From the NCBI GenBank assembly GCA_016845305.1, contig JAERSW010000045.1:1-64000 (forward strand): a stretch of DNA of 64,000 bases, written 5' to 3'. Positions 20,646 to 51,172 of the stretch are shown piece by piece. The notes under the pieces were generated by a model. It ran no database searches. It worked only from the letters and a program-made list of their open reading frames with translations, and had not been told where the DNA came from. Position 1 is the first letter of the stretch. Each line of letters opens with the position of its first letter. The position numbers and the translations under genes are program-made. Source of the stretch: Acidimicrobiales bacterium (GTDB taxonomy: Bacteria; Actinomycetota; Acidimicrobiia; Acidimicrobiales; MedAcidi-G1).

Positions 20646-22970
20646 TCATTGCATGCGCTCCGCGGCGGCCAGCTCGATGGCGTCCTCTTCATCGGGCCGG
20701 AAGGCCCGCTCGGTGGCGATCTCGACCCGGTCGATCCGCCCGGCGAACGCATACGGGGCCTCGTAGGCGCCGCTGACGCCGGTCGGGTTGCGACCCAGGT
20801 CGAGTCCGATCGGCGAGATCATCACCGGCACCACCGGGATCAGCACCTCGGTCACGACGGCGCCGTCGACCAGCAGGCGGGCCCGGCCGGGACCGCGCTT
20901 CACCCGCTGCTGCTGGACGGTCAGGACGCTGGCGCCGGCGGGCACCGGCTCGGGCGACCGGACCACGGTGTGGTCGGCGTAGGCGTTGTGGTCGTAGACG
21001 AGGTGGCCGTCGTCGTCGACGTAGGCCACGAGGCCGTTGTTGACCGTCCCGAAGGCGAACAACACGCCGGCCTCGGTGCCGGTGGGCCGGTCCACGTGGA
21101 CGGCGGCCTCCCAGTTGCGCGACCCCAGCGCCGGCCCGGCGTCGGGCGGGACCCGGGGCGTGGGCGGCATGTACACGAAGGCGTCGCGGTTGCGGGGCGT
21201 GCCCGCCGTGGCGTGCCCGCTGAACAGCCCGCCGCCGGCGGCGCCCGAGAGGTTCCCGCCGCCGTCCATGATCGGGAGCACGCCGTAGCGGTCGGCCTCC
21301 TCCCAGAACATCTCGACCATGGCGGCGAGACGGTCGGGCTGCTCGTCGGCCAGGTCGTGGCACTCGGAGAAGTCCTCGTCGAGGTGGTACAGCTCCCACA
21401 CGTCGTCGTCGAGGCTGGTGCCGAACCGGTGGAAGGCGACGGCCTTCCAGCCGTCGGCCCAGATGCCGCGGTGGCCCTGCATCTCGAAGTACTGCCGGCC
21501 CTTGCGGCTGGGCACCGCCGAGGCGTCGTCGGCCTGCGGGTCGAACGTGTAGGCGAGGCTGGTGCCCTCGATGGGCTGCTGCTCGATGCCGTTGATGGTC
21601 GCCGGGGCGGCCGAGCCGACGAGATCCAGCAGGGTGGGCGCCAGGTCCACGACGTGGTGGAACTGGGTGCGGACCTGCCCGTTGGCGGCAGGGTCGATAC
21701 CCGCCGGCCACGAGATGATGAGCGGGTCGCGCACGCCGCCCGAGTGGGTGTTCTGCTTGTAGCGCTTGCCCGGCGAGTTGCCGACCTGCGCCCAGCCCCA
21801 CGGGTAGTTCGTGTTGCTGGTGCGGGTGCCGATCTCGTCGAGCCGGGCGACGGCCTCGTCCACGGGTTGGTCGACGCCGTTGAAGTGGCGGAACGTGTCG
21901 AGGATGCCGGTGGCCCGCCCCTCCTGGGAGGCGCCGTTGTCGCTGAGGGCGACGACGATGGTGTCATCGGCGATGCCGAGGGCGTCGAGCTCGTCGAGGA
22001 GGCGGCCGAGTTGGGCGTCGGTGTGGTCGAGCATGGCGGCGAATGCCTCCTGGAGGCGGCACGCCAGCGCCTGCTCGTCGGACGACAGGTCGTCCCAGGC
22101 CTCGACGCCGGGGTTGCGGGGCGCCAGGTCGGTGCCGGGCGGGATGACGCCCATGGCCAGCTGGTTCTCGTAGACGCGTTGGCGGGCGACGTCCCAGCCC
22201 TCGTCGAACCGGCCCCGCCACTTCTGCAGGTAGTCGTCGGGCGCCTGGTGCGGGGCGTGGGTGGCGCCGAAGGCGAGGTACAGGAAGAAGGGCCGTTCGG
22301 GGACCATCGTGTGCTGGGTGCGCACCAGGTCGATGGCGTGGTCGACGAGGTCCTCGGTGACGTGGTACCCCTCCTCGGGCGTGCGGGGCTGGTCGACGAG
22401 GCGGTTGTCCTCGTACAGCTCGGGGTGGAACTGGTCGGTCTCGCCCTGCATGAAGCCGTAGTAGCGGTCGAAGCCCCGCTGCAGCGGCCAGTCGCCGAAC
22501 GGTCCGACGGCCGACGCCTCCCGCATCGGGGTGAGGTGCCACTTGCCGACCGCCCACGTGGCGAAGCCGTCCTCGCGGAGCATCTCGGCCATGGTCCCCG
22601 CCGACCGGGCGATGCGGCCTCGCATGTTCGGGTAGCCGGTGTCGAAGTTCGAGAGCGCCCGCATGCCCACCGAGTGGTGGTTGCGACCGGTCAGCAGGCA
22701 GGCCCGGGTCGGCGAGCACAGCGCCGTGGTGTGGAAGTTGGTGTAGCGCAGGCCGCGGGCCGCCAGGCGGTCGTAGTTGGGGGTGTCGACGAGGCCGCCG
22801 TAGCAGCCGAGGTGGGCGAAGCCGGTGTCGTCGAGCAGCACGACGACCACGTTGGGGGTGCCGGCGGCCGGGAGGACCGGCTCGGGCCACCACGGGGTGG
22901 ACTCGCTGGTGGTACGGCCGATGACCTGGTCGGCCTGCGACGTGGGCCCGGGGGTGGCGGTGTCCGTCAT
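20646..22970 (-). CDS. Large arylsulfatase (AtsD-like)
   Basis: 774 aa, the length of mycobacterial AtsD/AtsB-type arylsulfatases. After a short N-terminal arm come PNVVVVLLDDTGFAHLGCYG (metal Asp pair), the formylglycine site TALCSPTRACLLTGRNHH (Cys-x-Pro-x-Arg), VGKWHL, and VVALSDNGAS. The extra C-terminal 250 residues form the beta-rich domain typical of this subgroup. No signal peptide. It lies 79 bp downstream of the fatty acid/sterol hydroxylase on the same strand, so co-transcription from the region holding the 24128 palindrome is likely. Cleaves a sulfate ester, probably of a large or lipophilic substrate (inference). Confidence 0.92.
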   Translation of the reverse strand: MTDTATPGPTSQADQVIGRTTSESTPWWPEPVLPAAGTPNVVVVLLDDTGFAHLGCYGGLVDTPNYDRLAARGLRYTNFHTTALCSPTRACLLTGRNHHSVGMRALSNFDTGYPNMRGRIARSAGTMAEMLREDGFATWAVGKWHLTPMREASAVGPFGDWPLQRGFDRYYGFMQGETDQFHPELYEDNRLVDQPRTPEEGYHVTEDLVDHAIDLVRTQHTMVPERPFFLYLAFGATHAPHQAPDDYLQKWRGRFDEGWDVARQRVYENQLAMGVIPPGTDLAPRNPGVEAWDDLSSDEQALACRLQEAFAAMLDHTDAQLGRLLDELDALGIADDTIVVALSDNGASQEGRATGILDTFRHFNGVDQPVDEAVARLDEIGTRTSNTNYPWGWAQVGNSPGKRYKQNTHSGGVRDPLIISWPAGIDPAANGQVRTQFHHVVDLAPTLLDLVGSAAPATINGIEQQPIEGTSLAYTFDPQADDASAVPSRKGRQYFEMQGHRGIWADGWKAVAFHRFGTSLDDDVWELYHLDEDFSECHDLADEQPDRLAAMVEMFWEEADRYGVLPIMDGGGNLSGAAGGGLFSGHATAGTPRNRDAFVYMPPTPRVPPDAGPALGSRNWEAAVHVDRPTGTEAGVLFAFGTVNNGLVAYVDDDGHLVYDHNAYADHTVVRSPEPVPAGASVLTVQQQRVKRGPGRARLLVDGAVVTEVLIPVVPVMISPIGLDLGRNPTGVSGAYEAPYAFAGRIDRVEIATERAFRPDEEDAIELAAAERMQ

Positions 22971-23049
22971 GCCCCGAGCGTGGCGCAGATCGGCGCCCGG
23001 GTCGTCACCGGGGAGGCCGTCGCGGAGGCCGCCCCGGAGGCAATCAGCC

Positions 23050-24042
23050 TCAGGACGCCTGGTCGGCGCGCTGGCGGCCTTTGAGGCGTTCGTGGGCGAC
23101 CTTGGTGCCGTCGTGCCACGTGCCGGTCCACCGGTCGATCGGCATCTGGGTGTTGCCGTAGTTGACCTCGAAGTACCGGTGGTGGAGCTGGTGGAACAGG
23201 TCGCCGGCGGAGACGGTGATGCGCCCGAACCGGACCCGGTCGAAGCCGCTGTGCGAGGGCGCCGGACCGGGGCCGTCGTACATGACGAACATCAGGACCA
23301 CCAGCGGGTGCACCGGGACCACCAGGAACACCAGGAAGCCCGAGAAGTAGACGAGGTGCTCGAGGGGGTGCATCGAGATGCCCGTCCACGGGCCCGGGTT
23401 GGGGTTGCGGTGGTGGAGTGCGTGGACGGTCCGGTAAAGGGGCACCGAGTGGATGAGCCGGTGGTTCAGCCAGAAGTGGGCCGTCGACAGCCACACCACC
23501 CCGAGGGTGGCCGACAGGAGCACGACCACCGGGTTCGACGCCCAGTCCGGACGGTCGACCAGGCCGCTGGCGTACGCCCAGTGGGTGAGGCACTCGTAGG
23601 CGGTCAGGAAGCCGACACCGCTGGTCATCGTCCAGAAGGCGTTGTCGCGGGTCTGGTTGCCGAAGGTGAACTTGGCGCCGTCGCCCGGCCAGCGGCGGTT
23701 GAACTTGAACTCGTCGCCCTGGGCGCGCCTGACGTAGAGCCACCAGTGGAGGCCGCCGGCGATGCCGCCGACGAGGAGCAGGTTCCGGACCCAGATCTGG
23801 GCGATCCAGCCGATGTGGAGGTCGGCCATCGTCGCCTCCGACGGGAGGAACCACTGCCAGATGACCAGCGACAGGACGAAGTAAAAGGCCACCCACGGGT
23901 AGGTGATCATCCGCAGGATCCACGCCACCGCGGCGCCGGGTCGGGGCGGCCACGAGAACACGGCGGGCGCCTCGATGGGGACGGGCGGCTGGTAGTCGCT
24001 GTTGGCGATGCCGAGGTACGCCTCGGACCTGTTCTCAGACAT
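23050..24042 (-). CDS. Fatty acid/sterol hydroxylase-family membrane di-iron enzyme
   Basis: 330 aa. Several hydrophobic segments (about residues 37-65, 85-102, 150-170, 178-195, 255-275) are interleaved with histidine boxes HFWLNHRLIH, HALHHRN and HQLHHRYFEVNYGNTQ, the signature of the membrane-bound sterol desaturase/fatty acid hydroxylase superfamily. It inserts oxygen or a double bond into a lipid using O2 and reductant. The next gene on the strand is the large arylsulfatase. It diverges from a dehydrogenase-aldolase operon, with a TetR-type palindrome between them. Confidence 0.9.
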   Translation of the reverse strand: MSENRSEAYLGIANSDYQPPVPIEAPAVFSWPPRPGAAVAWILRMITYPWVAFYFVLSLVIWQWFLPSEATMADLHIGWIAQIWVRNLLLVGGIAGGLHWWLYVRRAQGDEFKFNRRWPGDGAKFTFGNQTRDNAFWTMTSGVGFLTAYECLTHWAYASGLVDRPDWASNPVVVLLSATLGVVWLSTAHFWLNHRLIHSVPLYRTVHALHHRNPNPGPWTGISMHPLEHLVYFSGFLVFLVVPVHPLVVLMFVMYDGPGPAPSHSGFDRVRFGRITVSAGDLFHQLHHRYFEVNYGNTQMPIDRWTGTWHDGTKVAHERLKGRQRADQAS

Positions 24043-24127
24043 GCGGCCTCTCAGACATGGGGTGCCTCGGGCATGGCGGGCCTCCGGGTCGTGCCGGTCC
24101 GGCTCGATCGGTGAACGGCGGTAGCGT

Positions 24128-24145
24128 ACTGGACGTTCGTTCAGT
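24128..24145. promoter_or_regulatory. TetR-type palindrome, copy 2
   Basis: ACTGGACGTTCGTTCAGT has 8-bp arms around a central TT with one mismatched pair. It lies in the 128-bp divergent gap between the hydroxylase (start 24042) and the dehydrogenase (start 24171), directly after a plus-strand -10-like TAGCGT at 24122-24127. It matches the site upstream of tetR at 49558-49575 in 16 of 18 positions, so the same repressor may bind both. Confidence 0.65.
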
Positions 24146-24170: not shown

Positions 24171-25055
24171 GTGCACGTCCTCGTGATCGGGCTCGGCCAC
24201 ATGGGTGGGCCCATGGCCGCCAACCTGGTCGCCGCCGGCCACGACGTCTCCGGCTTCGACCTCGGCGCCGACCAGTGCTCCACGGCCGCCGCCACCGGGG
24301 TCGCCGTCGTCGACGCCGTCGAGGCGGCTGCGGGTGCCGCCGACGTGGTCCTCACCTCGCTCCCCGGCCCCACCCAGGTCGGCTCCGTCGGCGAGCAGCT
24401 CTTCGCCTCGATGGCGCCGGACGCCGTCTGGGTCGACACGTCGACCAGCGACCTGGACCGCGCCGAGTCGCTCCGGGGGCCCGCCCGGGAGGCCGGGGTC
24501 CACCTGGTCGACGCCACCGTGTCCGGCGGGCCGGAGGGCTCGGCCGCCGGCACGCTGTCGGTGTTCGTGGGCGGCGACGACGAACCGGTGGCCCGCTGCA
24601 TGCCGCTGTTCGACGCCATCGGCGAACGCATCCACCACCTCGGCCCGCACGGCGCCGGCTACGTGGCCAAGATCGCCCAGGTCACGCTGTGCTACACGCA
24701 GACCGTCTGCCTCGTCGAGGCGCTCATGCTGGGCGTCAAGGGCGGCGTCGAGCCGGCCCGGATGCTGGAGATGATCCGGCACAGCGCCGGCGGCAGCTAC
24801 GTGGCCGACAACTACGGCCCCGAGATCGTGGCCGGCACCTACGACCCCACGTTCCCGTTGTCACACGCCGCCAAGGACATGCGCCTGGCCATGGAGATGG
24901 CCGGACACGTCGGCGCCGAACTTCCCTTCATGGCCGCCGTGGCCGAGGCCTACGCTGCCGCCGAGTCGACCTTCGGCGCCGAGGCCCCGCACCTGCTGGC
25001 CGCCCGACTCACCGAGATCGCCAACGACCTGACCCTGCACGAGGAGCGACGATGA
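24171..25055 (+). CDS. 3-hydroxyisobutyrate dehydrogenase-family NAD(P) oxidoreductase
   Basis: 294 aa beta-hydroxyacid dehydrogenase. N-terminal VLVIGLGHMGGPMAANL (cofactor loop and substrate-binding motif), VDATVSGGPEGSAAGTLSVFVGG (substrate motif) and the catalytic Lys in GYVAKIAQ, although the usual following Asn is Gln here. The GTG at 24171 has GGAGG at 24161-24165 five bases upstream. It overlaps the class II aldolase by ATGA. This dehydrogenase-plus-aldolase pairing resembles LtnD-OtnC of tetronate catabolism, but the kinase of that pathway is not in the window. Confidence 0.88.
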   Translation: MHVLVIGLGHMGGPMAANLVAAGHDVSGFDLGADQCSTAAATGVAVVDAVEAAAGAADVVLTSLPGPTQVGSVGEQLFASMAPDAVWVDTSTSDLDRAESLRGPAREAGVHLVDATVSGGPEGSAAGTLSVFVGGDDEPVARCMPLFDAIGERIHHLGPHGAGYVAKIAQVTLCYTQTVCLVEALMLGVKGGVEPARMLEMIRHSAGGSYVADNYGPEIVAGTYDPTFPLSHAAKDMRLAMEMAGHVGAELPFMAAVAEAYAAAESTFGAEAPHLLAARLTEIANDLTLHEERR

Positions 25056-25831
25056 CCGACCAGCCCCGCGAGCTCACCGGCGACGACTTCGCCGCCGCCA
25101 ACGCGTCGAGCATGAGCGGCGCCGAGTGGGAGGCCCGGGTCGACCTGGCCGCCATGTACCGGCTGTCGGCCCACTTCGGCTACGACGACACCGTCTGGAA
25201 TCACATCACGATGCGGGTCCCGGGCACCGAGAACGACTTCTTCCTCAACAAGTTCGGGCTGCTGTACAGCGAGGTCACGGCGTCGAACCTCATCAAGGTC
25301 GACAGCGAGGGGACGGTGCTCGAGGGCCCCGCCGACGTGAACACGGCCGGCTTCGTGATCCACGGCGCCATCCACAACGACTTCCCGCAGCACAAGGTCG
25401 TCTTCCACGCCCACGTGCCCGATGCCCTGGCGGTCACCGCGCTGCGCGACGGCTTCGAGCACCTCGTGCAGGACACGTCGATGCTGTACGGCCAGATCGG
25501 CTACCACGACTGGGAGGGGCTGTCGCTGACGCTGGAGGAGCGGGAGCGCCTGGCCAAGAACATGGACGGCAACCGGATGCTGGTCATGCGCAACCACGGG
25601 TTCCTGGCCGTCGGCGAGACCGCCGGCGAGGCGTTCATGGTGATGCACTACTTCATCCGGGGATGCCGCACGCTGCTGCGGGCCCGGGCCACCGGCCTGC
25701 CCATCGACCCGGGGCCGACCGACATCTGGGAGCTGTCCAAGCGCCAGTACGACCAGTTCCCGCTCGGTAGGCACGAGTGGCCGGCGCTGAAGCGGATGCT
25801 GGACGGGATCGACCCGTCATACCGCCAGTAG
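25052..25831 (+). CDS. Class II aldolase/adducin-family protein
   Basis: 259 aa. Conserved features: YDDTVWNHITMRVPG near the N-terminus, the zinc-binding HAHVP pair with a later His in RNHGFLAVG, and the INTAGF-like VNTAGFVIH. The family splits or decarboxylates sugar-phosphate or acid substrates. Coupled by ATGA to the dehydrogenase upstream; followed 41 bp later by an enolase-superfamily gene, so a sugar-acid route is plausible. Confidence 0.88.
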   Translation: MTDQPRELTGDDFAAANASSMSGAEWEARVDLAAMYRLSAHFGYDDTVWNHITMRVPGTENDFFLNKFGLLYSEVTASNLIKVDSEGTVLEGPADVNTAGFVIHGAIHNDFPQHKVVFHAHVPDALAVTALRDGFEHLVQDTSMLYGQIGYHDWEGLSLTLEERERLAKNMDGNRMLVMRNHGFLAVGETAGEAFMVMHYFIRGCRTLLRARATGLPIDPGPTDIWELSKRQYDQFPLGRHEWPALKRMLDGIDPSYRQ

Positions 25832-25872
25832 GACCGCCGCTCCCCTCCCTCGGCCCCCCGCTGCTCCCCGCC

Positions 25873-26970
25873 GTGGCCACCATCGAACGGCTGACGACCA
25901 CGGTCGTCGACGTGCCGCTGCCACGGCCGATCGCCACATCGATCCACGCCAGCCGCTCGGTCGGTTGCGTGCTCGTCGACGTGACCACGACCGACGGGGT
26001 CGTCGGCCAGGGCTTCGCCTTCGCCATGGACGGCCGTCGGATCCGGGCCTTCGACGAGGTGGTCCGCGACTACGCCCGGTTCGTGGAGGGCCGTGACACC
26101 GCGGACGCCGAGGCCATCTGGCAGGACGTGTGGGCCGACCTGAACCCCACCGGCCACGCCGGGATCACCGTCTCGGCGCTCGCCGCCGTCGACGTGGCCG
26201 TCTGGGACGCCCACGCCCGCAGCCGCGACGTGCCGCTCCACGCCCTGTTCGGCACCTGCCGGGACCGGGTGGCGACGTACGCCAGCAGCGGGCTGTGGCT
26301 GTCGGTCGGACTCGACGACCTGGCCGCCGAGGCCCGGCGGTTCGTGGCCGACGGCTTCCGGGCCGTGAAGGTGCGGATCGGCTCGGCGCCCACGGCCGAG
26401 GGCCTGGCCGACGACGTGGCGCGGGTGCGGACGGTGAGCGAGGCCGTGGGGCCGGACGTGGCCGTCCACGTGGACGCCAACCAGGGCTTCGGCGTCGACC
26501 ACGCCGTCGAGGTGGCACGGGCCCTGGCCCCGCTGGACGTGGCATGGCTGGAGGAGCCCGTGGCCTACGACGACCTGGCCGGGCACGCCCGGGTACGCGC
26601 CGACGGCGGCGTCCCGGTCGCCACCGGCGAGACGGTGTTCGCCCGGGCCGGGATCGCCGCGGTAGTCGCGGCCGGGGCGTGCGAGGTGATCATGCCCGAC
26701 CTGCAGCGCGTCGGCGGCTACACGGAGATGCGCCGTGCGTGTGCGCTGGCGGCCACGGCCGGGGTGCCCGTGTCGACCCACTTCTTCACCGAGCACAGCC
26801 TGTCGGTGGCGGCGTCCACGCCGGGCTGCACGTCGGTCGAGCACGTCGACTGGTTCGCCCCGCTGTTCGCCGAGTCGATGGAGCTGCTCGACGGCGAGCT
26901 GGTGGTCCCGGACCGGCCCGGGACCGGGTTCACGTTCGACGAGGACGCCCGGAGGCGCTACGCCGTCTGA
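25873..26970 (+). CDS. Mandelate racemase/enolase-superfamily acid-sugar dehydratase-like enzyme
   Basis: 365 aa. Metal ligands Asp201 (HVDANQG), Glu227 (WLEEPV) and Glu253 (ATGETVF); Asp276-His303 dyad (MPDLQRVGG, STHFFTEHS). The catalytic Lys-x-Lys of mandelate racemase reads Lys166-Val-Arg168, so the second lysine is replaced by arginine, which fits acid-sugar dehydratases better than racemases. GTG at 25873 is chosen as first start after the aldolase; longer readings overlap it. Its 3' end overlaps the convergent TauD gene by 13 bp. Confidence 0.85.
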   Translation: MATIERLTTTVVDVPLPRPIATSIHASRSVGCVLVDVTTTDGVVGQGFAFAMDGRRIRAFDEVVRDYARFVEGRDTADAEAIWQDVWADLNPTGHAGITVSALAAVDVAVWDAHARSRDVPLHALFGTCRDRVATYASSGLWLSVGLDDLAAEARRFVADGFRAVKVRIGSAPTAEGLADDVARVRTVSEAVGPDVAVHVDANQGFGVDHAVEVARALAPLDVAWLEEPVAYDDLAGHARVRADGGVPVATGETVFARAGIAAVVAAGACEVIMPDLQRVGGYTEMRRACALAATAGVPVSTHFFTEHSLSVAASTPGCTSVEHVDWFAPLFAESMELLDGELVVPDRPGTGFTFDEDARRRYAV

Positions 26971-27797
26971 CGCCGGTCGGCAGTGACGATGAGCCGGTGC
27001 ATGACGCGCCGGTGCGGCAGGTAGTCGTCGGCGGCGTAGTGCTGGGTGCCCCGGTTGTCCCACAGGACGACCACGTCGGGCTCCCACCGCACCCGCACCT
27101 GGAACTGGGGGCGGGCGATGGTGTCGAACAGGTAGGTGAGGATGCGTCGACCCTCGGGGACGGCCATGCCGATCACGTGGGTGGTGAAGCTCTCGTTCAC
27201 GTGGATGAACGGCTGGCCGGTCACCGGGTGGTGGTCGACGATGGGGTGCACCGAGGCGCCGACCTCGGCGAGGCGTTCGTTCATCAGCTCCACGCCGCCC
27301 TCGGCGAACGTGTGATTGCGGAACGACCCCATGTCGTGGACCGCGGAGAGGCCGGCCAGGTCGGCGCGCAGGCCGGGGAGCAGCGAGTCGTGGACGGCGG
27401 ACAGGCTGGCGAACAGGGTGTCGCCGCCGGTGGGCGGCAGGACCGACGGCTGGAGGATCGACAGGAACGGCCGGTCGGGCCGGAAGCTCAGGTCGGTGTG
27501 CCACTCGGCGTTGTCGGGCGGCTGGTCGGGCCCGGTGTCGAGCACGGTGATGGACGGGTGGCCGTCGAGGCTCGGGTAGGTGTGGTGGGCGGGGGCGAGC
27601 GGGCCGAACGAGGCGCCGAGGGCCTCCATCTGGTCGGGGGCCAGCGGGCCGCCCCGCAGGACCAGGACGTGGTGCTCGAGGAGGGCGTCGTAGAGGGCGT
27701 CCGCGGTGGCGTCGTCGAGGCCGTCGGCCAGGTCGAGGCCGTGGACCTCGGCGCCGATCGCCGGCGTCAGCCGAACCGTCTCGAAGGCCCCGGTCAC
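26958..27797 (-). CDS. TauD/TfdA-family Fe(II)/2OG dioxygenase
   Basis: 279 aa. Triad His100-x-Asp102 (WHTDLSF) and His253 (TQHYAADD), 2OG-binding Arg264 and Arg268, spaced as in TauD. Substrate not inferable. Start GTG at 27797, 10 bp after the glycerol kinase stop; the frame is open further upstream inside glpK, which I reject. It is the last gene of a six-gene operon with a Rieske oxygenase, haloalkane dehalogenase, PhzF, PPOX-like protein and glycerol kinase. Confidence 0.87.
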   Translation of the reverse strand: MTGAFETVRLTPAIGAEVHGLDLADGLDDATADALYDALLEHHVLVLRGGPLAPDQMEALGASFGPLAPAHHTYPSLDGHPSITVLDTGPDQPPDNAEWHTDLSFRPDRPFLSILQPSVLPPTGGDTLFASLSAVHDSLLPGLRADLAGLSAVHDMGSFRNHTFAEGGVELMNERLAEVGASVHPIVDHHPVTGQPFIHVNESFTTHVIGMAVPEGRRILTYLFDTIARPQFQVRVRWEPDVVVLWDNRGTQHYAADDYLPHRRVMHRLIVTADRRQTA

Positions 27798-44632: not shown

Positions 44633-45388
44633 TCAGCCGTCGGACGCCGGATCGGCGTCGACCGGCAGCCGGTGGGCCAGCAACGCCTCGTAGTGCACGG
44701 TGGCCCGCTCCAGGAACTCCACGAGGCGGGGGTCGTCGTCGAGGGGCGCGTACTCGGTGGTGGGCCGGCTGATGCCCGTGCTGGCCCGCAGGTTGTCGTG
44801 CCACGGCCCGGTGCCCTCGCCGTACCACGCCACCTCGGAGCGGTCGCCCTCCTCCCACGACAGGGCCTCGGCGACGAAGTCGATGCCGACGGCGGCGCAG
44901 TAGGCGCGCACGGTGGCCTCGGTCCGGTCGAGCAGGTCGTCGGACGCCATGACCGGCGGCGGCGTGCCCGTCCGCTCGGTGATGCGCTCGTGGAGGCGGT
45001 GCAGCGACTCGAAGCCGACCTCCTCCCACGAGCAGTCGGGCCAGTGCCTGGCCAGGCCCTGGATGACCCGGCGGGGCTCGCGCACCAGGAAGGTGTGGAC
45101 CATGCCGTCGAGGCGCTCGTCGGTCAGCTCGTGCTCGACGGAGTAGACGAAGTCCTTCACGAACGCCCGTCCGCCGGCCGCCGCGGAGTCCAGCTCCTCC
45201 CAGGCCGCCGCGTAGGTGTGGCCGGGCCGGGCCTCGACGTGGGCGTCACGGTCCGACCGACGGTCGACGCCGTAGTAGTAGAGCTCGTTCCACGGCTCGT
45301 GGAAGCAGGTGAAGTCGCCGCGCTGGCGCATCATCCACTCGAACGCCGTCGAGGTGGACCGGGGGGTCGCCCACAGGGTCAGGAACAC
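44633..45388 (-). CDS. Sulfotransferase-family protein
   Basis: 251 aa. The 5'-phosphosulfate loop is at residues 7-18 (WATPRSTSTAFE) and a 3'-phosphate segment follows around HTFLVREPRRVIQG. It would transfer sulfate from PAPS to a hydroxyl or amine. A GGAGG ribosome site five bases before the GTG at 45388 supports the start. It sits directly after the complete PAPS-synthesis gene set, so sulfation of a metabolite or lipid is the obvious purpose of that set. Acceptor unknown. Confidence 0.85.
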   Translation of the reverse strand: MFLTLWATPRSTSTAFEWMMRQRGDFTCFHEPWNELYYYGVDRRSDRDAHVEARPGHTYAAAWEELDSAAAGGRAFVKDFVYSVEHELTDERLDGMVHTFLVREPRRVIQGLARHWPDCSWEEVGFESLHRLHERITERTGTPPPVMASDDLLDRTEATVRAYCAAVGIDFVAEALSWEEGDRSEVAWYGEGTGPWHDNLRASTGISRPTTEYAPLDDDPRLVEFLERATVHYEALLAHRLPVDADPASDG

Positions 45389-45454
45389 GGTCGCCTCCGG
45401 CAGGTCGGCGCGTCGGGGTCGGGGTTGGGGTCGGCCGTCGGAGCGAACCGGCGG

Positions 45455-46084
45455 TCAGGCGTCGACGCCCAGGTGGGCGAGGACGTCGGCCACGCAGGCG
45501 TCCAACGGGCGGGTGGTGTCGAGCGTCAGGTCCGGCGTGGTCGGCGCCTCGTAGGGGGCGGACACGCCGCTGAACTCGGGGATCTCGCCAGCGCGGGCCC
45601 GGGCGTACAGGCCCTTGACGTCGCGGCCCTCGCACACCTGGAGCGAGGCGTCGACGAAGACCTCCGAGAACGCCCCGTCCGGGTGGAGCGCTCGGACCAG
45701 GTCGCGGTCGGCCCGGTACGGCGAGATGAACGCCGAGAGCACGACGAGGCCGGCGTCGACGAACAGGCGGCACACCTCCCCCACCCGGCGGACGTTCTCG
45801 GTGCGGTCCTCCGGCGAGAAGCCGAGGTCCCGGTTGAGGCCCATACGGACGTTGTCGCCATCGAGCACGTAGGCGGCGATGCCGCGGGCGACGAGCGCCT
45901 CCTCGACGGCATAGGCCACCGTCGACTTGCCGGACCCCGACAGCCCCGTCAACCACAGGGCGTGCCCGACGTGACCGGTCACCGCGGCCCGGCGGGCGGC
46001 GTCGACGTGGCCGTCGGCGCGGGTCAGGTTCCGCTCGGCGTCGCCGGGCGGCAGCGTCGACCCGTCGTGTCCCACGTCAGCCAC
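45455..46084 (-). CDS. cysC: Adenylylsulfate kinase (stand-alone)
   Basis: 209 aa. Makes PAPS from APS and ATP. Walker [10 protein letters not shown] at 47-55, [30 protein letters not shown] and [19 protein letters not shown] are all canonical for APS kinase. The start is a GTG that overlaps the cysNC stop by 8 bp. This enzyme is in addition to an APS kinase domain fused to CysN in the gene just upstream, and its motifs are better conserved than those of the fused copy, so it probably carries the kinase activity. Confidence 0.92.
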
Positions 46085-47996
46085 CGATCACGCCCCGGTC
46101 GGCGAGCAGCCCGAGGATGGCGTCGACGCACCCGTCGACGCCCCGCGTGGCGCCGTCGAGCACCAGGTCGGCGTCCGTGGGGCGTTCGTAGTCGGCGGTC
46201 ACGCCAGGGAAGTCGGGGATCTCGCCCCGGTCGGCGGCCTCGTACTGGCCGTTCGGGTCGCGCCGCCGGCACTCCTCGATCGGCGTGTCGACGAAGACCT
46301 CCACGAACCGGTGGTCGCCGATGAGCTCCCGGGCCCGGGCCCGCACGTCGGCCTCGGGAGCGACGAGCGCGGCGATGGCGATCAGGCCCTGCCGGTTGGC
46401 CAGCAGGGCGACCTCGGCCACCCGACGCAGGTTCTCGGACCGGTCGGTGGCGCTGAAGCCGAGGTCGCGGCTGATGCCGAGCCGGACGTTCTCGCCGTCG
46501 AGGCGCATCGTGGTCCGGCCCCGGTCGAAGAGGCGGCGCTCCAGGGCCGCCGCAATGGTGGACTTGCCGGCGGCGGTGAGGCCGGTGAGCAGCACCGTGC
46601 AGGGTCGCTGGCCGAGGCGGGCGGCCCGCTCCTCGGGGGTGATCTCGGAGCGGTGGCGCACGAGGCCCTCGTCGGGCTCGACGTCCCACGTCGACGCCGC
46701 GCCGGTGATCATCCCGGCGGCGACGGTGGCGTTGGACATGCGGTCCACGAGGACGAACGAGCCGGTGACCGGATCCTCCGCATACGGGTCGAACAGGAGC
46801 GGCCGCTCGGCGACCAGGGTGCAGGCGGCCACGTCGTTCAACGCCAGGGCGTCGGCGGGCACCTCGTCGCCCGTGTTGACGTCGATGCGGTGGCGGATGG
46901 CGGCCAGCGAGGCATCGACCTCGCCGGTGGCCAACCGCAGCAGGAGGCGCCGCCCCGGCTCGACCGGCTCGGCGGCCATCCAGACGACGGTGGCCTCCAG
47001 GTCGTGGACGCGGGTCGGGTGGTCGCCGGTGCCGACCAGCAGGTCGCCGCGGCTCACGTCGATCTCGTCGGCCAGCGTGACGGTCACGGCATCGCCCGGA
47101 CCGGCCTCGTCGAGGTCGCCGTCGAAGGTCACGAGGCGGGCGACGGTCGACGACACGCCGGACGGCAACGCCACCACGTCGTCGCCGGGCCGCAGCACGC
47201 CGGACGCCACCGTGCCGGCGAAGCCCCGGAAGTCCAGGTCGGGGCGCACCACCAGCTGCACCGGGAAGCGCAGCCGCTCGAGGTCGGCGTCGTCGGCCAC
47301 GTCGACCGTCTCGAGGTACTCCATGAGCGGCGGTCCGTCGTACCAGCCGAGGTTGTCGCCGGCGTCGACCACGTTGTCGCCCAGCAGCGCCGAGATGGGC
47401 AGGTAGTGGGCGTCGACGGCGCCGAGGCCGTCGGCGAACGCCCGGTGGTCGGCGACGACCTCCTCGAAGCGGTCGCGGGACCAGTCGACGAGGTCCATCT
47501 TGTTGACGGCCACCACCAGGTGGCGGATGCCGAGCAGGTGGGCGATGAGGGTGTGGCGACGGGTCTGGTCGAGCACGCCGTGCCGGGCGTCGACGAGCAC
47601 GACGGCCAGCTGGCAGGTCGACGCCCCGGTGACCATGTTGCGGGTGTACTGCTCGTGCCCGGGCGTGTCGGCCACGATGAACTTGCGGCGGGCCGTCGAG
47701 AAGTACCGGTAGGCCACGTCGATGGTGATGCCCTGCTCGCGTTCGGCCTTCAGGCCGTCCATGAGCAGGGCCAGGTCGACGCGGTCGCCGGCCGAGCCCA
47801 TGGTCGTCGAGTCGGCCTCGAGGCCGGCCAGGTGGTCCTCGTAGATCATCGCCGAGTCGTGCAGGAGTCGGCCGATGAGGGTCGACTTGCCGTCGTCGAC
47901 GCTGCCGCAGGTGAGCAGGCGCAGGAGGTCCTTGCGCTCGTGCTCGGCGAGGTAGGCGTCGATGTCGGTGGCGATCAGCTCGGAGGCGTGCGACAT
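46077..47996 (-). CDS. cysNC: Bifunctional sulfate adenylyltransferase large subunit/APS kinase
   Basis: 639 aa. GTPase part: P-loop GSVDDGKST at 31-39, [12 protein letters not shown] and NKMDLVDW, which drives APS formation with CysD. APS kinase part: P-loop GLTAAGKST from residue 462, [20 protein letters not shown]. In this domain the usual FISPxR reads LVAPEA and the usual KGLY reads NGQY, so substrate-binding residues are altered and kinase activity is doubtful. It overlaps cysD by one base (TGATG). Confidence 0.92.
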
Positions 47997-48895
47997 CAGA
48001 AGTAGCCCTCGCGCTTCTTCTCCTCCATGGAGCCCGACTGGTCGTGGTCGATGACCCGGCCCTCGCGCTCGGAGCGCGTGGCCAGCAGCATCTCCTGGAT
48101 GATCTCGGGCAGCGTGGTGGCCGTCGACGCCACGGCGCCCGACAGCGGATAGCAGCCCAGCGTGCGGAACCGCACCGAACGCATCTCGGGTTTCTCGCCG
48201 TCGGCGAACCGGAAGCGGTCGTCGTCGACCATGATCAGCGTGCCGTCGCGCTCCACGACGGGGCGGACCGCCGAGTGGTACAGCGGCACGATCGGGATCT
48301 GCTCGAGGTGGATGTACTGCCAGACGTCCAGCTCGGTCCAGTTGCTGATCGGGAACACCCGGATGCTCTCGCCCCGGTGGACCCGGCCGTTGTAGAGGTT
48401 CCAGAGCTCCGGGCGCTGGTTCTTCGGGTCCCAGCGGTGGTGGCGGTCGCGGAAGCTGAAGACCCGTTCCTTGGCCCGGGACCGCTCCTCGTCGCGGCGG
48501 GCGCCACCGAAGGCGGCGTCGTAGCCACCGGCCTCGAGCGCCTGCTTGAGGGCCTGGGTCTTCATGACGTCGGTGTAGTTGCGCGACCCGTGGTCGAACG
48601 GGTTGATGCCCGCCGCCCGGCCCTCCTCGTTGGTGTGGACCACCATGTCGAGGTCGAGCTCGGCGGCGGTGCGGTCGCGGAACTCGATCATCTCCCGGAA
48701 CTTCCACGTGGTGTCCACGTGCAGCAGCGGGAACGGGATGCGCCCCGGGTGGAACGCCTTGCGGGCCAGGTGCAGCAGGACCGACGAGTCCTTGCCGATC
48801 GAGTAGAGCATGACGGGCCGCTCGAACTGGGCGACGACCTCGCGCATCACGTGGATGCTCTCGGCCTCGAGCTGCTGGAGGTGGGTGCGGCGCAT
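47996..48895 (-). CDS. cysD: Sulfate adenylyltransferase small subunit
   Basis: 299 aa. PP-loop ATP pyrophosphatase; [12 protein letters not shown] at 32-43, [37 protein letters not shown] and the C-terminal [10 protein letters not shown] are diagnostic of CysD. Together with CysN it makes APS from sulfate and ATP. The ATG at 48895 is 2 bp after the tetR stop, so regulator and enzyme form one operon. No APS or sulfite reductase gene is near, which favours PAPS for sulfation over cysteine synthesis. Confidence 0.95.
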
Positions 48896-48897
48896 GG

Positions 48898-49512
48898 TCA
48901 GGCGGATCCCTCTGCTGCTCCAGTGCCGCCCGGGGCGGGGGCGAGCGCGATCTCGTCGCAGCGACGCAGGCCCCGGTCGAGGGCGGCCCGGTCGCCGAAC
49001 CGGGCCCAGTTCAGCCACAGGCCGTTCTGGGTGAGCGACACGTCGTCGGCCCTGGCGCGGGCCTCGGCGGCGTCCACGCCGGGTCGGGCGGCCATGATGA
49101 GCTCCGCCATGCGGGCCACGTACTGCTCGTAGACCCGCAGGTCGGCAGCGCCGATCTCGGGGTCGAGGCGGCCGGCTGCCCACAGCACGAGGCGGAGGCG
49201 GAGGTACCCGGGCGACAGGAACTCCTCGTCGGCCGCGCCGCGGACGAACGCCCGGACGCGCTCCTCGGGGCCGTCCACGCCGTCGAGCGTGTTCATGGCC
49301 GAGGCCAGGAGGCGGTCGCATGCCAGCTGGAACGCCGCCGTGATGAGCGCCTGCTTGCCGGCGAAGTGGTAGTTCAGCAGGCCGAGCGACACGTCGGCCT
49401 CGGCGGCCACCGCCCGCATGCTGACCCCGGCGATCCCACCCTCGGCGAGGCAGGCCAGCACGGCGTCCAGGATCTGTTCCTGGGTGTCGCTGAGCTCCGC
49501 CTGCGGGGTCAT
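48898..49512 (-). CDS. TetR-family transcriptional repressor (BetI-like C-terminal type)
   Basis: 204 aa. N-terminal helix-turn-helix: [22 protein letters not shown] then the [11 protein letters not shown] helix; the C-terminal ligand domain resembles the BetI-type group. First gene of the operon with cysD, cysNC, cysC and, 66 bp later, the sulfotransferase. An 18-bp palindrome lies 45 bp upstream of the ATG, so autorepression is likely, and a near copy lies at 24128-24145. The inducing ligand is unknown; a lipid, acyl-CoA or sulfated compound would fit the linked genes. Confidence 0.9.
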
Positions 49513-49557: not shown

Positions 49558-49575
49558 ACTGGACGTTCGTCCAAT
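49558..49575. promoter_or_regulatory. TetR-type palindrome, copy 1
   Basis: ACTGGACGTTCGTCCAAT; the inner TGGACG-TT-CGTCCA is fully symmetric. On the minus strand a -10-like TAGATT (49578-49573) runs into its edge, so a bound repressor would block the tetR-cysD promoter. It lies in the 136-bp gap between tetR and the divergent monooxygenase and could control both. Confidence 0.65.
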
Positions 49576-49634
49576 CTAGGACACGGCAGCCACATGAGGG
49601 GGAGCCGGGTTCCCGTTCCAGCCCCGGGTTTTCC

Positions 49635-49648: not shown

Positions 49649-51172
49649 ATGGCGGACACCACTGACGCAGCCACGACCAACCACCACGACGTCCTCATCG
49701 TGGGTGCCGGCATCTCCGGCCTCGGCGGCGCCGTCCACCTCCGCGAGCGGTGCCCCGACCACACCTTCGCCATCCTCGAGGGCCGTCCCGACATCGGCGG
49801 CACCTGGGACCTGTTCCGCTATCCGGGCGTGCGGTCCGACAGCGACATGCACACCCTCGGCTACCGGTTCAAGCCGTGGAAGCACGAGAAGTCGATCGCC
49901 GACGGACCCGTCATCATGGACTACCTCCGCGAGACGGTCGCCGAGTACGACCTGGCCCGCCACATCCGCTTCGGCCACCGCGTCACCCGCGCCGAGTGGT
50001 CCAGCGACGACGTCCGGTGGACGCTCACCGTCACCCGCACCGACGGCACGACCGGCGCCGAGGACGAGGTCACGATGACCTGCGGGTTCCTGTTCATGTG
50101 CTCCGGCTACTACAGCTATCGCGAGGGCTACACGCCGGTGTTCGAGGGGCGCGACCGCTTCCGGGGCACGATCGTCCACCCCCAGCAGTGGCCCGAGGAC
50201 CTCGACTACACGGGCAAGCGGGTGCTGGTGGTCGGTTCGGGCGCCACGGCCATGACGGTGGTACCGGCCATGGCCGACACGGCCGAACACGTCACCATGC
50301 TGCAACGCTCCCCCACCTACGTCGTGGCCCGGCCGGCGAAGGACGTGATCGCCAACCGGCTCCGCAGGTTCCTGCCCCCCCGGCTCGCCTACGCCATCGT
50401 GCGCCGCAAGAACGTGTTCCGCCAGGGCCTCGTCTACCGCAAGACCCGCACCGAGCCGGAGAAGATCCGGCAGCTGATGCTCGCCGGCGTCCGGGCCGGC
50501 CTGGGTCCCGACTACGACGTCGACACCCACTTCACCCCTTCGTACAACCCGTGGGACCAGCGGCTCTGCCTCATCCCCGACGGCGACCTCTTCAAGGCCA
50601 TCCGGTCCGGGAAGGCGTCGGTGGTGACCGACACCATCGACACGTTCACCGAGGACGGGATCCTGCTGGACAGCGGCGAGGAGCTCCACGCCGACATCAT
50701 CGTGACGGCCACGGGCCTGAACCTCGTCACCCTCGGCGAGATGGACTTCGTCGTCGACGGCGAGCCGGTCGACTTCGCCCGCACCTGGACGTACCGGGGG
50801 CTCGGCTACTCCGACATCCCGAACCTCGTGTCCACGTTCGGCTACGTGAACGCCTCGTGGACGCTGAAGGCCGACCTGACGTCGGAGTACGTGTGCCGCC
50901 TGCTGAACCACATGGCGAAGGCCGGCGCCACCCGCTGCACGCCCCGGCTGCGACCCGACGACGCCGACATGCCGCAGCGCAAGTGGATCGAGGACTTCCC
51001 GGCCGGGTACATGGAGCGGTCCATGCACCTGCTCCCCCGCCAGGGCGACCGGGCGCCGTGGCTGAACCCGCAGGACTACCGGCGCGACGTGAAGATGATC
51101 CGCCGGGGCGCCATCGACGACGGCGTCATGACCTTCGACGCTCCCGACCGGGCGGCCGTGCCCGTCGGCTGA
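49649..51172 (+). CDS. Flavin-containing monooxygenase, Baeyer-Villiger type (EthA-like)
   Basis: 507 aa. N-terminal VLIVGAGISGLGG (FAD), the Baeyer-Villiger fingerprint FRGTIVHPQQWP, VLVVGSGATAMTVVP (NADPH), and VTATGLNL near the end. The family inserts oxygen next to ketones or oxidises sulfides and thioamides. A nitrilase gene follows 45 bp later on the same strand and may act in sequence. It diverges from tetR, so the palindrome in between may regulate it too. Substrate unknown. Confidence 0.9.
   Translation: MADTTDAATTNHHDVLIVGAGISGLGGAVHLRERCPDHTFAILEGRPDIGGTWDLFRYPGVRSDSDMHTLGYRFKPWKHEKSIADGPVIMDYLRETVAEYDLARHIRFGHRVTRAEWSSDDVRWTLTVTRTDGTTGAEDEVTMTCGFLFMCSGYYSYREGYTPVFEGRDRFRGTIVHPQQWPEDLDYTGKRVLVVGSGATAMTVVPAMADTAEHVTMLQRSPTYVVARPAKDVIANRLRRFLPPRLAYAIVRRKNVFRQGLVYRKTRTEPEKIRQLMLAGVRAGLGPDYDVDTHFTPSYNPWDQRLCLIPDGDLFKAIRSGKASVVTDTIDTFTEDGILLDSGEELHADIIVTATGLNLVTLGEMDFVVDGEPVDFARTWTYRGLGYSDIPNLVSTFGYVNASWTLKADLTSEYVCRLLNHMAKAGATRCTPRLRPDDADMPQRKWIEDFPAGYMERSMHLLPRQGDRAPWLNPQDYRRDVKMIRRGAIDDGVMTFDAPDRAAVPVG

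Follow-up and report, generated by a model that had tools for sequence, protein, structure and literature searches.

Comparison with described systems

BetI1 of Ruegeria pomeroyi is a choline-responsive TetR repressor, whose site, the betI box, reads ATTGACG*CGTCAAT (PMC12442346). The TetR protein encoded in the window, the 64,000-nucleotide stretch of Acidimicrobiales DNA analysed here, resembles it in several respects. It carries a BetI-type C-terminal domain, has BetI as its top NCBIfam match by score and is predicted to be autoregulated and to serve a regulon of several sites, and the half-sites of both regulators hold ...GACG/CGTC.... In one related locus (L143) tetR and a true choline-sulfatase gene (667 bits against a cut-off of 433) overlap, an arrangement that resembles the betI1-betC operon and is seen in that locus only. 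However, the window protein reaches 67.7 bits against the BetI equivalog cut-off of 201.3, its predicted operator is ACTGRACGNNCGTYCAGT and not the betI box ATTGACG*CGTCAAT (PMC12442346), and no bet genes are seen around its gene. Membership in BetI thus fails on both the NCBIfam score and the operator sequence. Choline or choline-sulfate genes were not seen in the window.

The locus is also reminiscent of EthR-EthA of Mycobacterium tuberculosis, in that tetR is divergent from a gene for a Baeyer-Villiger-type flavin monooxygenase and the two regulators share the general TetR fold (Z of about 16 for the EthR chains). Unlike in that system, the operator in the window lies on the tetR/PAPS side and is absent from genomes without tetR, although the monooxygenase persists there. 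A divergon of the EthR/EthA type is unlikely, as the operator tracks tetR and not the monooxygenase. The nearest protein of known structure, by sequence profile and by fold, is 3e7q, an uncharacterised TetR of Pseudomonas aeruginosa PAO1.

Loci with relatives of this TetR, as opposed to the window itself, encode M24 proteins that are 31–35% identical to the DMSP lyase DddP (4b28, 4rzy). All six metal ligands described for DddP (PMC4108388) are conserved in six M24 sequences, as is Asp377, its proposed base; Tyr366 is conserved in five of the six. The M24 proteins score 274.7 bits against the NCBIfam DddP equivalog cut-off of 600, and their lyase role is putative. No published account of the regulon described below was found in the open-access literature.

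The TetR protein and the PAPS operon

The proposed repressor is a protein of 204 amino acids encoded on the minus strand at 48898–49512. Its TetR_N helix-turn-helix domain scores 45.4 bits against a Pfam cut-off of 24, while the BetI-type C-terminal domain (TetR_C_6) is marginal, with 28.3 bits against 27. The structure model (pLDDT 90.5) shows the all-helical TetR fold and matches 3e7q most closely (Z 19.7 over 190 residues, 27% identity); a sequence-profile comparison likewise puts 3e7q first among solved structures (E 3e-23). The structure search was considered for hints of a ligand, but the matches to choline-bound 4kwa and TMAO-bound 7acm were tied with many unrelated TetR proteins and were given no weight.

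The gene heads a PAPS operon on the minus strand, as the sequence-only reading had proposed. The cysD gene (47996–48895; sulfate adenylyltransferase subunit 2, with a Pfam PAPS_reduct domain) begins 2 nt past the tetR stop codon, and its own stop is overlapped by cysNC (46077–47996; sulfate adenylyltransferase GTPase and APS kinase). A second APS kinase gene, cysC (45455–46084), follows and is kept behind cysNC in the loci L139–L142; cysNC and cysC are named by sequence. The last gene (44633–45388) is sulfotransferase-like. The divergent flavin monooxygenase (BVMO-like; 49649–51172, plus strand) has its own conserved -10 element near the ATG and persists where tetR and the operator are missing; it is probably outside the control of the operator discussed here.

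Two palindromes in the window

The first palindrome, O1, is ACTGGACGTTCGTCCAAT at 49558–49575, placed within the tetR promoter, between tetR and the start of the monooxygenase gene at 49649. The second, O2, is ACTGGACGTTCGTTCAGT at 24128–24145 and ends 25 nt before the start of a dehydrogenase gene. The two are identical at 16 of 18 positions, as had been noticed by eye, and each is palindromic save for one pair and the TT center. The earlier observation that each touches a -10-like box also holds: TAGATT on the minus strand (49573–49578) overlaps O1, which fits autorepression of tetR, and TAGCGT on the plus strand (24122–24127), pointing toward the dehydrogenase operon, abuts O2. The predicted operator consensus is ACTGRACGNNCGTYCAGT, with an 8+2+8 architecture, ACTGGACGNNCGTCCAGT.

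No third copy is found within the window at three allowed mismatches, where 0.08 would be expected from shuffled sequences. The two palindromes are real and far beyond chance.

Conservation within the genus

An intact tetR ortholog is present in six of the 17 genus genomes, namely the window's own and five others with 69–79% identity. All six retain the gene order monooxygenase – tetR – cysD, with one extra gene in G005, and all six carry the palindrome 20–45 bp upstream of tetR. In the alignment of the intergenic regions ACTGRAC...GTCCA and the adjoining TAG, which belongs to the -10-like box of tetR, are kept in each of them, and the remaining DNA has diverged. Six genomes keep the monooxygenase and cysD without an intact tetR; in G001, G004, G008 and G009 the two genes adjoin each other, tetR is missing and the palindrome is absent. 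G005 is an intermediate arrangement, with a dioxygenase gene between the monooxygenase and tetR and the operator between the dioxygenase and tetR.

An apparent tetR remnant lies between the monooxygenase and cysD in G011 (locus L099, about 2415–2705), with the palindrome GCTGAACGACCGTTCAGT still present, and a recent loss of the regulator is possible in this genome. G012 may hold a shorter remnant.

The operator also occurs at the promoter of a PhyH dioxygenase gene, 7 nt before a -10-like TAGCGT and the ATG (L027, L028, L032 and L033, near 1501–1518), and is conserved there in G002, G003, G014 and G016 and absent in G007. The near-perfect sites of G003 and G014, at this PhyH/SDR promoter, are found in assemblies without tetR and without the whole BVMO-cysD block; either these assemblies are incomplete or another regulator is able to use the site.

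The neighbors of the second palindrome

O2 lies between a divergent fatty acid hydroxylase gene (23050–24042, minus strand) and an operon on the plus strand. The first gene of the latter encodes a beta-hydroxyacid dehydrogenase of the 3-hydroxyisobutyrate dehydrogenase family (24171–25055, with a GTG start behind GGGAGG), followed by a class II aldolase/adducin family protein (25052–25831) and an MR/MLE enzyme of the enolase superfamily (25777–26970), whose start codon is uncertain. A sulfoquinovose-type pathway, considered on account of a sulfolactaldehyde reductase match, was rejected, since the scores are under the cut-off and weaker than those of other members of the dehydrogenase family.

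The fatty acid hydroxylase is present in 16 of the 17 genus genomes, mostly with a sulfatase behind it. The palindrome is absent upstream of this gene in every relative with a readable upstream region, including the TetR-bearing G002, G006, G015 and G016. In several relatives the upstream neighbor of the hydroxylase is a TauD-like gene, and only in this genome is the dehydrogenase operon inserted between the two. Since the palindrome occurs at the hydroxylase only where this operon is inserted, O2 is assigned to the inserted operon, and the hydroxylase gene is probably not the evolved target. The rest of the genus has no ortholog of the O2 operon (only ~40% identical paralogs of the dehydrogenase), and there is no footprint within the genus at this site.

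The TauD-like dioxygenase gene of the window is located at 26958–27794, parted from the hydroxylase by the inserted operon. Several members of the genus, some with tetR and some lacking it, have the hydroxylase within ~14–26 kb of the PAPS operon (20646–24042 and 44633–48895 in the window; relatives G001, G002, G004, G006, G008, G009 and G011).

Further sites in the genome

A pattern search of the whole genome (2.92 Mb in 136 contigs) with the combined pattern and at most one mismatch returns three places: O1, O2 and C82:10138. The last of these, ACTGGACGTTCGTACAGT, is a near-exact copy, whereas a looser site, ACTGAACAAGCGTTCAGT at C18:29008, was found with a slightly wider pattern. At three mismatches the genome-wide matches are no more numerous than in the background control, and such weaker sites were discarded. 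Only these four sites, on three contigs, stand out in the genome. The absence of a third copy, remarked on in the sequence-only reading, is thus correct for the window and not for the genome, and the proposal of a local regulon of two sites has to be given up.

The third site is 52 bp upstream of a Rieske oxygenase gene. Among solved structures, carnitine monooxygenase 6y8j is the best relative of this enzyme (E 1e-60); glycine betaine monooxygenase is its top NCBIfam match, under the cut-off. In the rest of the genus the gene has only ~40% identical paralogs and no ortholog, so that a footprint within the genus is lacking. The fourth site lies between an enoyl-CoA hydratase (ECH) gene and a second MR/MLE gene. 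In the genus this ECH-MR/MLE cluster is found only in this genome and in G005, both of which have tetR and the site. Downstream of the MR/MLE gene at the fourth site there is a second fatty acid hydroxylase paralog (39% identity; G000:C18:31121–32077, L088).

TetR relatives outside the genus

The comparison outside the genus covers 38 loci with TetR relatives from named genomes, nearly all of them Acidimicrobiales metagenome assemblies. The homologs, from other Acidimicrobiales, have 40–61% identity; the relatives were fetched partly by recognition-helix and C-terminal patterns, so that similarity within these segments adds no independent support. At no more than one mismatch the palindrome occurs at 24 sites in L143–L174, while the reversed control and 12 shuffled palindromes give none. 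The operators are located at gene starts, between a dioxygenase gene and tetR or otherwise ahead of the dioxygenase gene, at DddP-like M24 genes with or without a divergent sulfatase, and at an EamA transporter gene. The more distant TetR homologs in L150, L151, L155, L161, L163, L165, L166 and L168 have no site in the DNA examined.

A weight matrix trained solely on these outgroup sites ranks O2 first in the window (31.9) and O1 second (25.3), with the third-best position at 10.0. The maximum in 60 random sequences of 64 kb (3.84 Mb) is 19.4. The Rieske and ECH sites, outside the window, score 28.2 and 27.7, respectively.

Orthologs of the O2 operon are found beside a TetR homolog in 13 of the fetched loci, with identities, where the genes are present, of 52–61% for the dehydrogenase, 79–85% for the aldolase and 52–58% for the MR/MLE enzyme. 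Three of the 13, L145–L147, also contain a homolog of the window sulfotransferase (68–69% identity), which ends the dehydrogenase operon there. Both operons of the window therefore appear to be parts of one cluster elsewhere. The SDR at the PhyH site of G002, G003, G014 and G016 is 61–67% identical to an SDR that immediately follows TetR in most of the other loci.

Between a HalD-like dioxygenase gene and tetR, four loci have a pair of operators 33–34 bp apart (L145:5932–5983, L146:5923–5974, L147:5915–5966 and L149:5924–5974), and tandem pairs are also seen at L169/L171:3257–3308 and L173:3050–3101. Such pairs may serve cooperative binding or the control of two divergent promoters.

The DddP-like M24 proteins are encoded at L164:2571–3761, L169:3330–4520, L143:3617–4774, L149:1064–2206, L163:481–1665 and L172:2469–3656, and several of these genes have the operator in their promoter.

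Alternative explanations

Given the short length of TetR-type half-sites and the frequent occurrence of imperfect palindromes, a coincidental resemblance of O1 and O2 has to be considered. The low expectation from shuffled sequences, the conservation of the palindrome together with tetR, the scores of the outgroup-trained motif, far above the random maximum, and the counts of outgroup sites refute this in practice and leave it a negligible probability. Alternatively, only O1 would belong to this TetR, and another member of the TetR family that recognizes a similar half-site would act at O2 and the two further sites. The genome has ~20 TetR-type genes, one of them 2.7 kb from the Rieske site, and in G003 and G014 a site is present although this TetR is not. 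However, the remaining TetR genes found in the genome all lack both a comparable recognition helix and an adjacent copy of the motif, and those close to the Rieske and PhyH loci, tried as alternative binders, were rejected as their recognition helices differ. Moreover, O2 outscores O1 with a motif trained on the family of this very TetR, and its operon adjoins members of this family in other genomes, which makes a second regulator improbable.

The other two alternatives concern the targets. The sequence-only reading saw in the fatty acid hydroxylase-arylsulfatase pair a connection of sulfate activation with lipid hydroxylation and desulfation. O2 is 86 bp upstream of the hydroxylase start, and several relatives have the hydroxylase and cysD no more than about 25 kb apart. 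Yet the gene is conserved in the genus whereas the palindrome precedes it only in this genome (in the readable regions), exactly where the dehydrogenase operon was inserted. The part of the proposal that concerns sulfate activation stands, the hydroxylase/sulfatase pair is probably not a target, judging from the genes and sites compared, and the lipid connection is unlikely. An EthR-like control of the divergent flavin monooxygenase could be suspected from the divergent arrangement, which is found in the window and in four relatives. It has little to recommend it, though, given that the operator is at least 73 bp from the monooxygenase start, that the gene has a conserved -10 element of its own, that in G005 the dioxygenase gene parts tetR from it, and that six genomes retain the monooxygenase and cysD in the absence of an intact tetR.

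The proposed regulon and its ligand

The best explanation as a whole, with a probability of about 0.85, is that the TetR encoded at 48898–49512 uses the palindrome as its operator and that the palindrome defines a regulon of four sites. The earlier suggestion that this TetR recognizes the palindrome is supported by the tetR-linked conservation and by the outgroup sites. The placement of both window sites in one regulon, also suggested earlier, draws on the fact that TetR homologs elsewhere adjoin an O2-type operon, which is independent of the motif. From these genomic comparisons, the very probable targets of the protein are its own tetR-cysDNC-sulfotransferase operon and the operon at 24171–26970.

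The motif, its rarity in the genome, its coupling to the presence of tetR and the gene neighborhoods are observed; binding, repression, induction and the ligand are inferred from them. In the proposed mechanism, the ligand-free TetR dimer would bind O1, cover the -10/start region of the tetR promoter and thereby shut off tetR-cysD-cysNC-cysC-sulfotransferase. The dimer would also occupy O2, ahead of the dehydrogenase-aldolase-MR/MLE operon, and the sites at the Rieske oxygenase and at the ECH-MR/MLE cluster would complete the regulon in this genome. The regulon may represent the scattered form of a cluster that is kept together in other Acidimicrobiales and comprises TetR, a HalD-like dioxygenase, the dehydrogenase operon and, at times, a sulfotransferase.

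A small onium-type compound, or a product of its breakdown, is the probable ligand and would act as the inducer, as suggested by the BetI-type domain together with the choline-sulfatase and the DddP-like and CntA-like partners. The dehydrogenase-aldolase-MR/MLE operon, by contrast, looks more like one for sugar-acid breakdown, to judge by its predicted enzymes, which keeps this assignment conditional. A more far-reaching reading is possible, if rather doubtful. It holds that an undescribed BetI-like TetR of the Acidimicrobiales responds to an osmolyte of the onium or sulfate-ester type (choline-O-sulfate, a carnitine/betaine-like compound or DMSP) and, via one conserved palindrome, coordinates the supply of PAPS with osmolyte breakdown by choline-sulfatase, the DddP-like lyase, the CntA-like oxygenase and the dioxygenase-dehydrogenase-aldolase-dehydratase operon. 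The ancestral cluster would have been split in the lineage of the window into dispersed operons, which kept or regained the operator.

The palindrome marks four promoters in the genome of this marine-type actinobacterium and dozens in its relatives, and points to an uncharacterised set of co-regulated genes for the breakdown of small organic compounds and the handling of sulfate. Two look-alike palindromes thereby become a testable regulon in widespread, little-studied and mostly uncultured actinobacteria. A dioxygenase, a beta-hydroxyacid dehydrogenase, a class II aldolase, an enzyme similar to sugar-acid dehydratases, sulfatases, a DddP-like lyase and PAPS synthesis are predicted to work together. 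If the onium reading is true, the Acidimicrobiales would have a part in turning over sulfur and nitrogen osmolytes in the sea.
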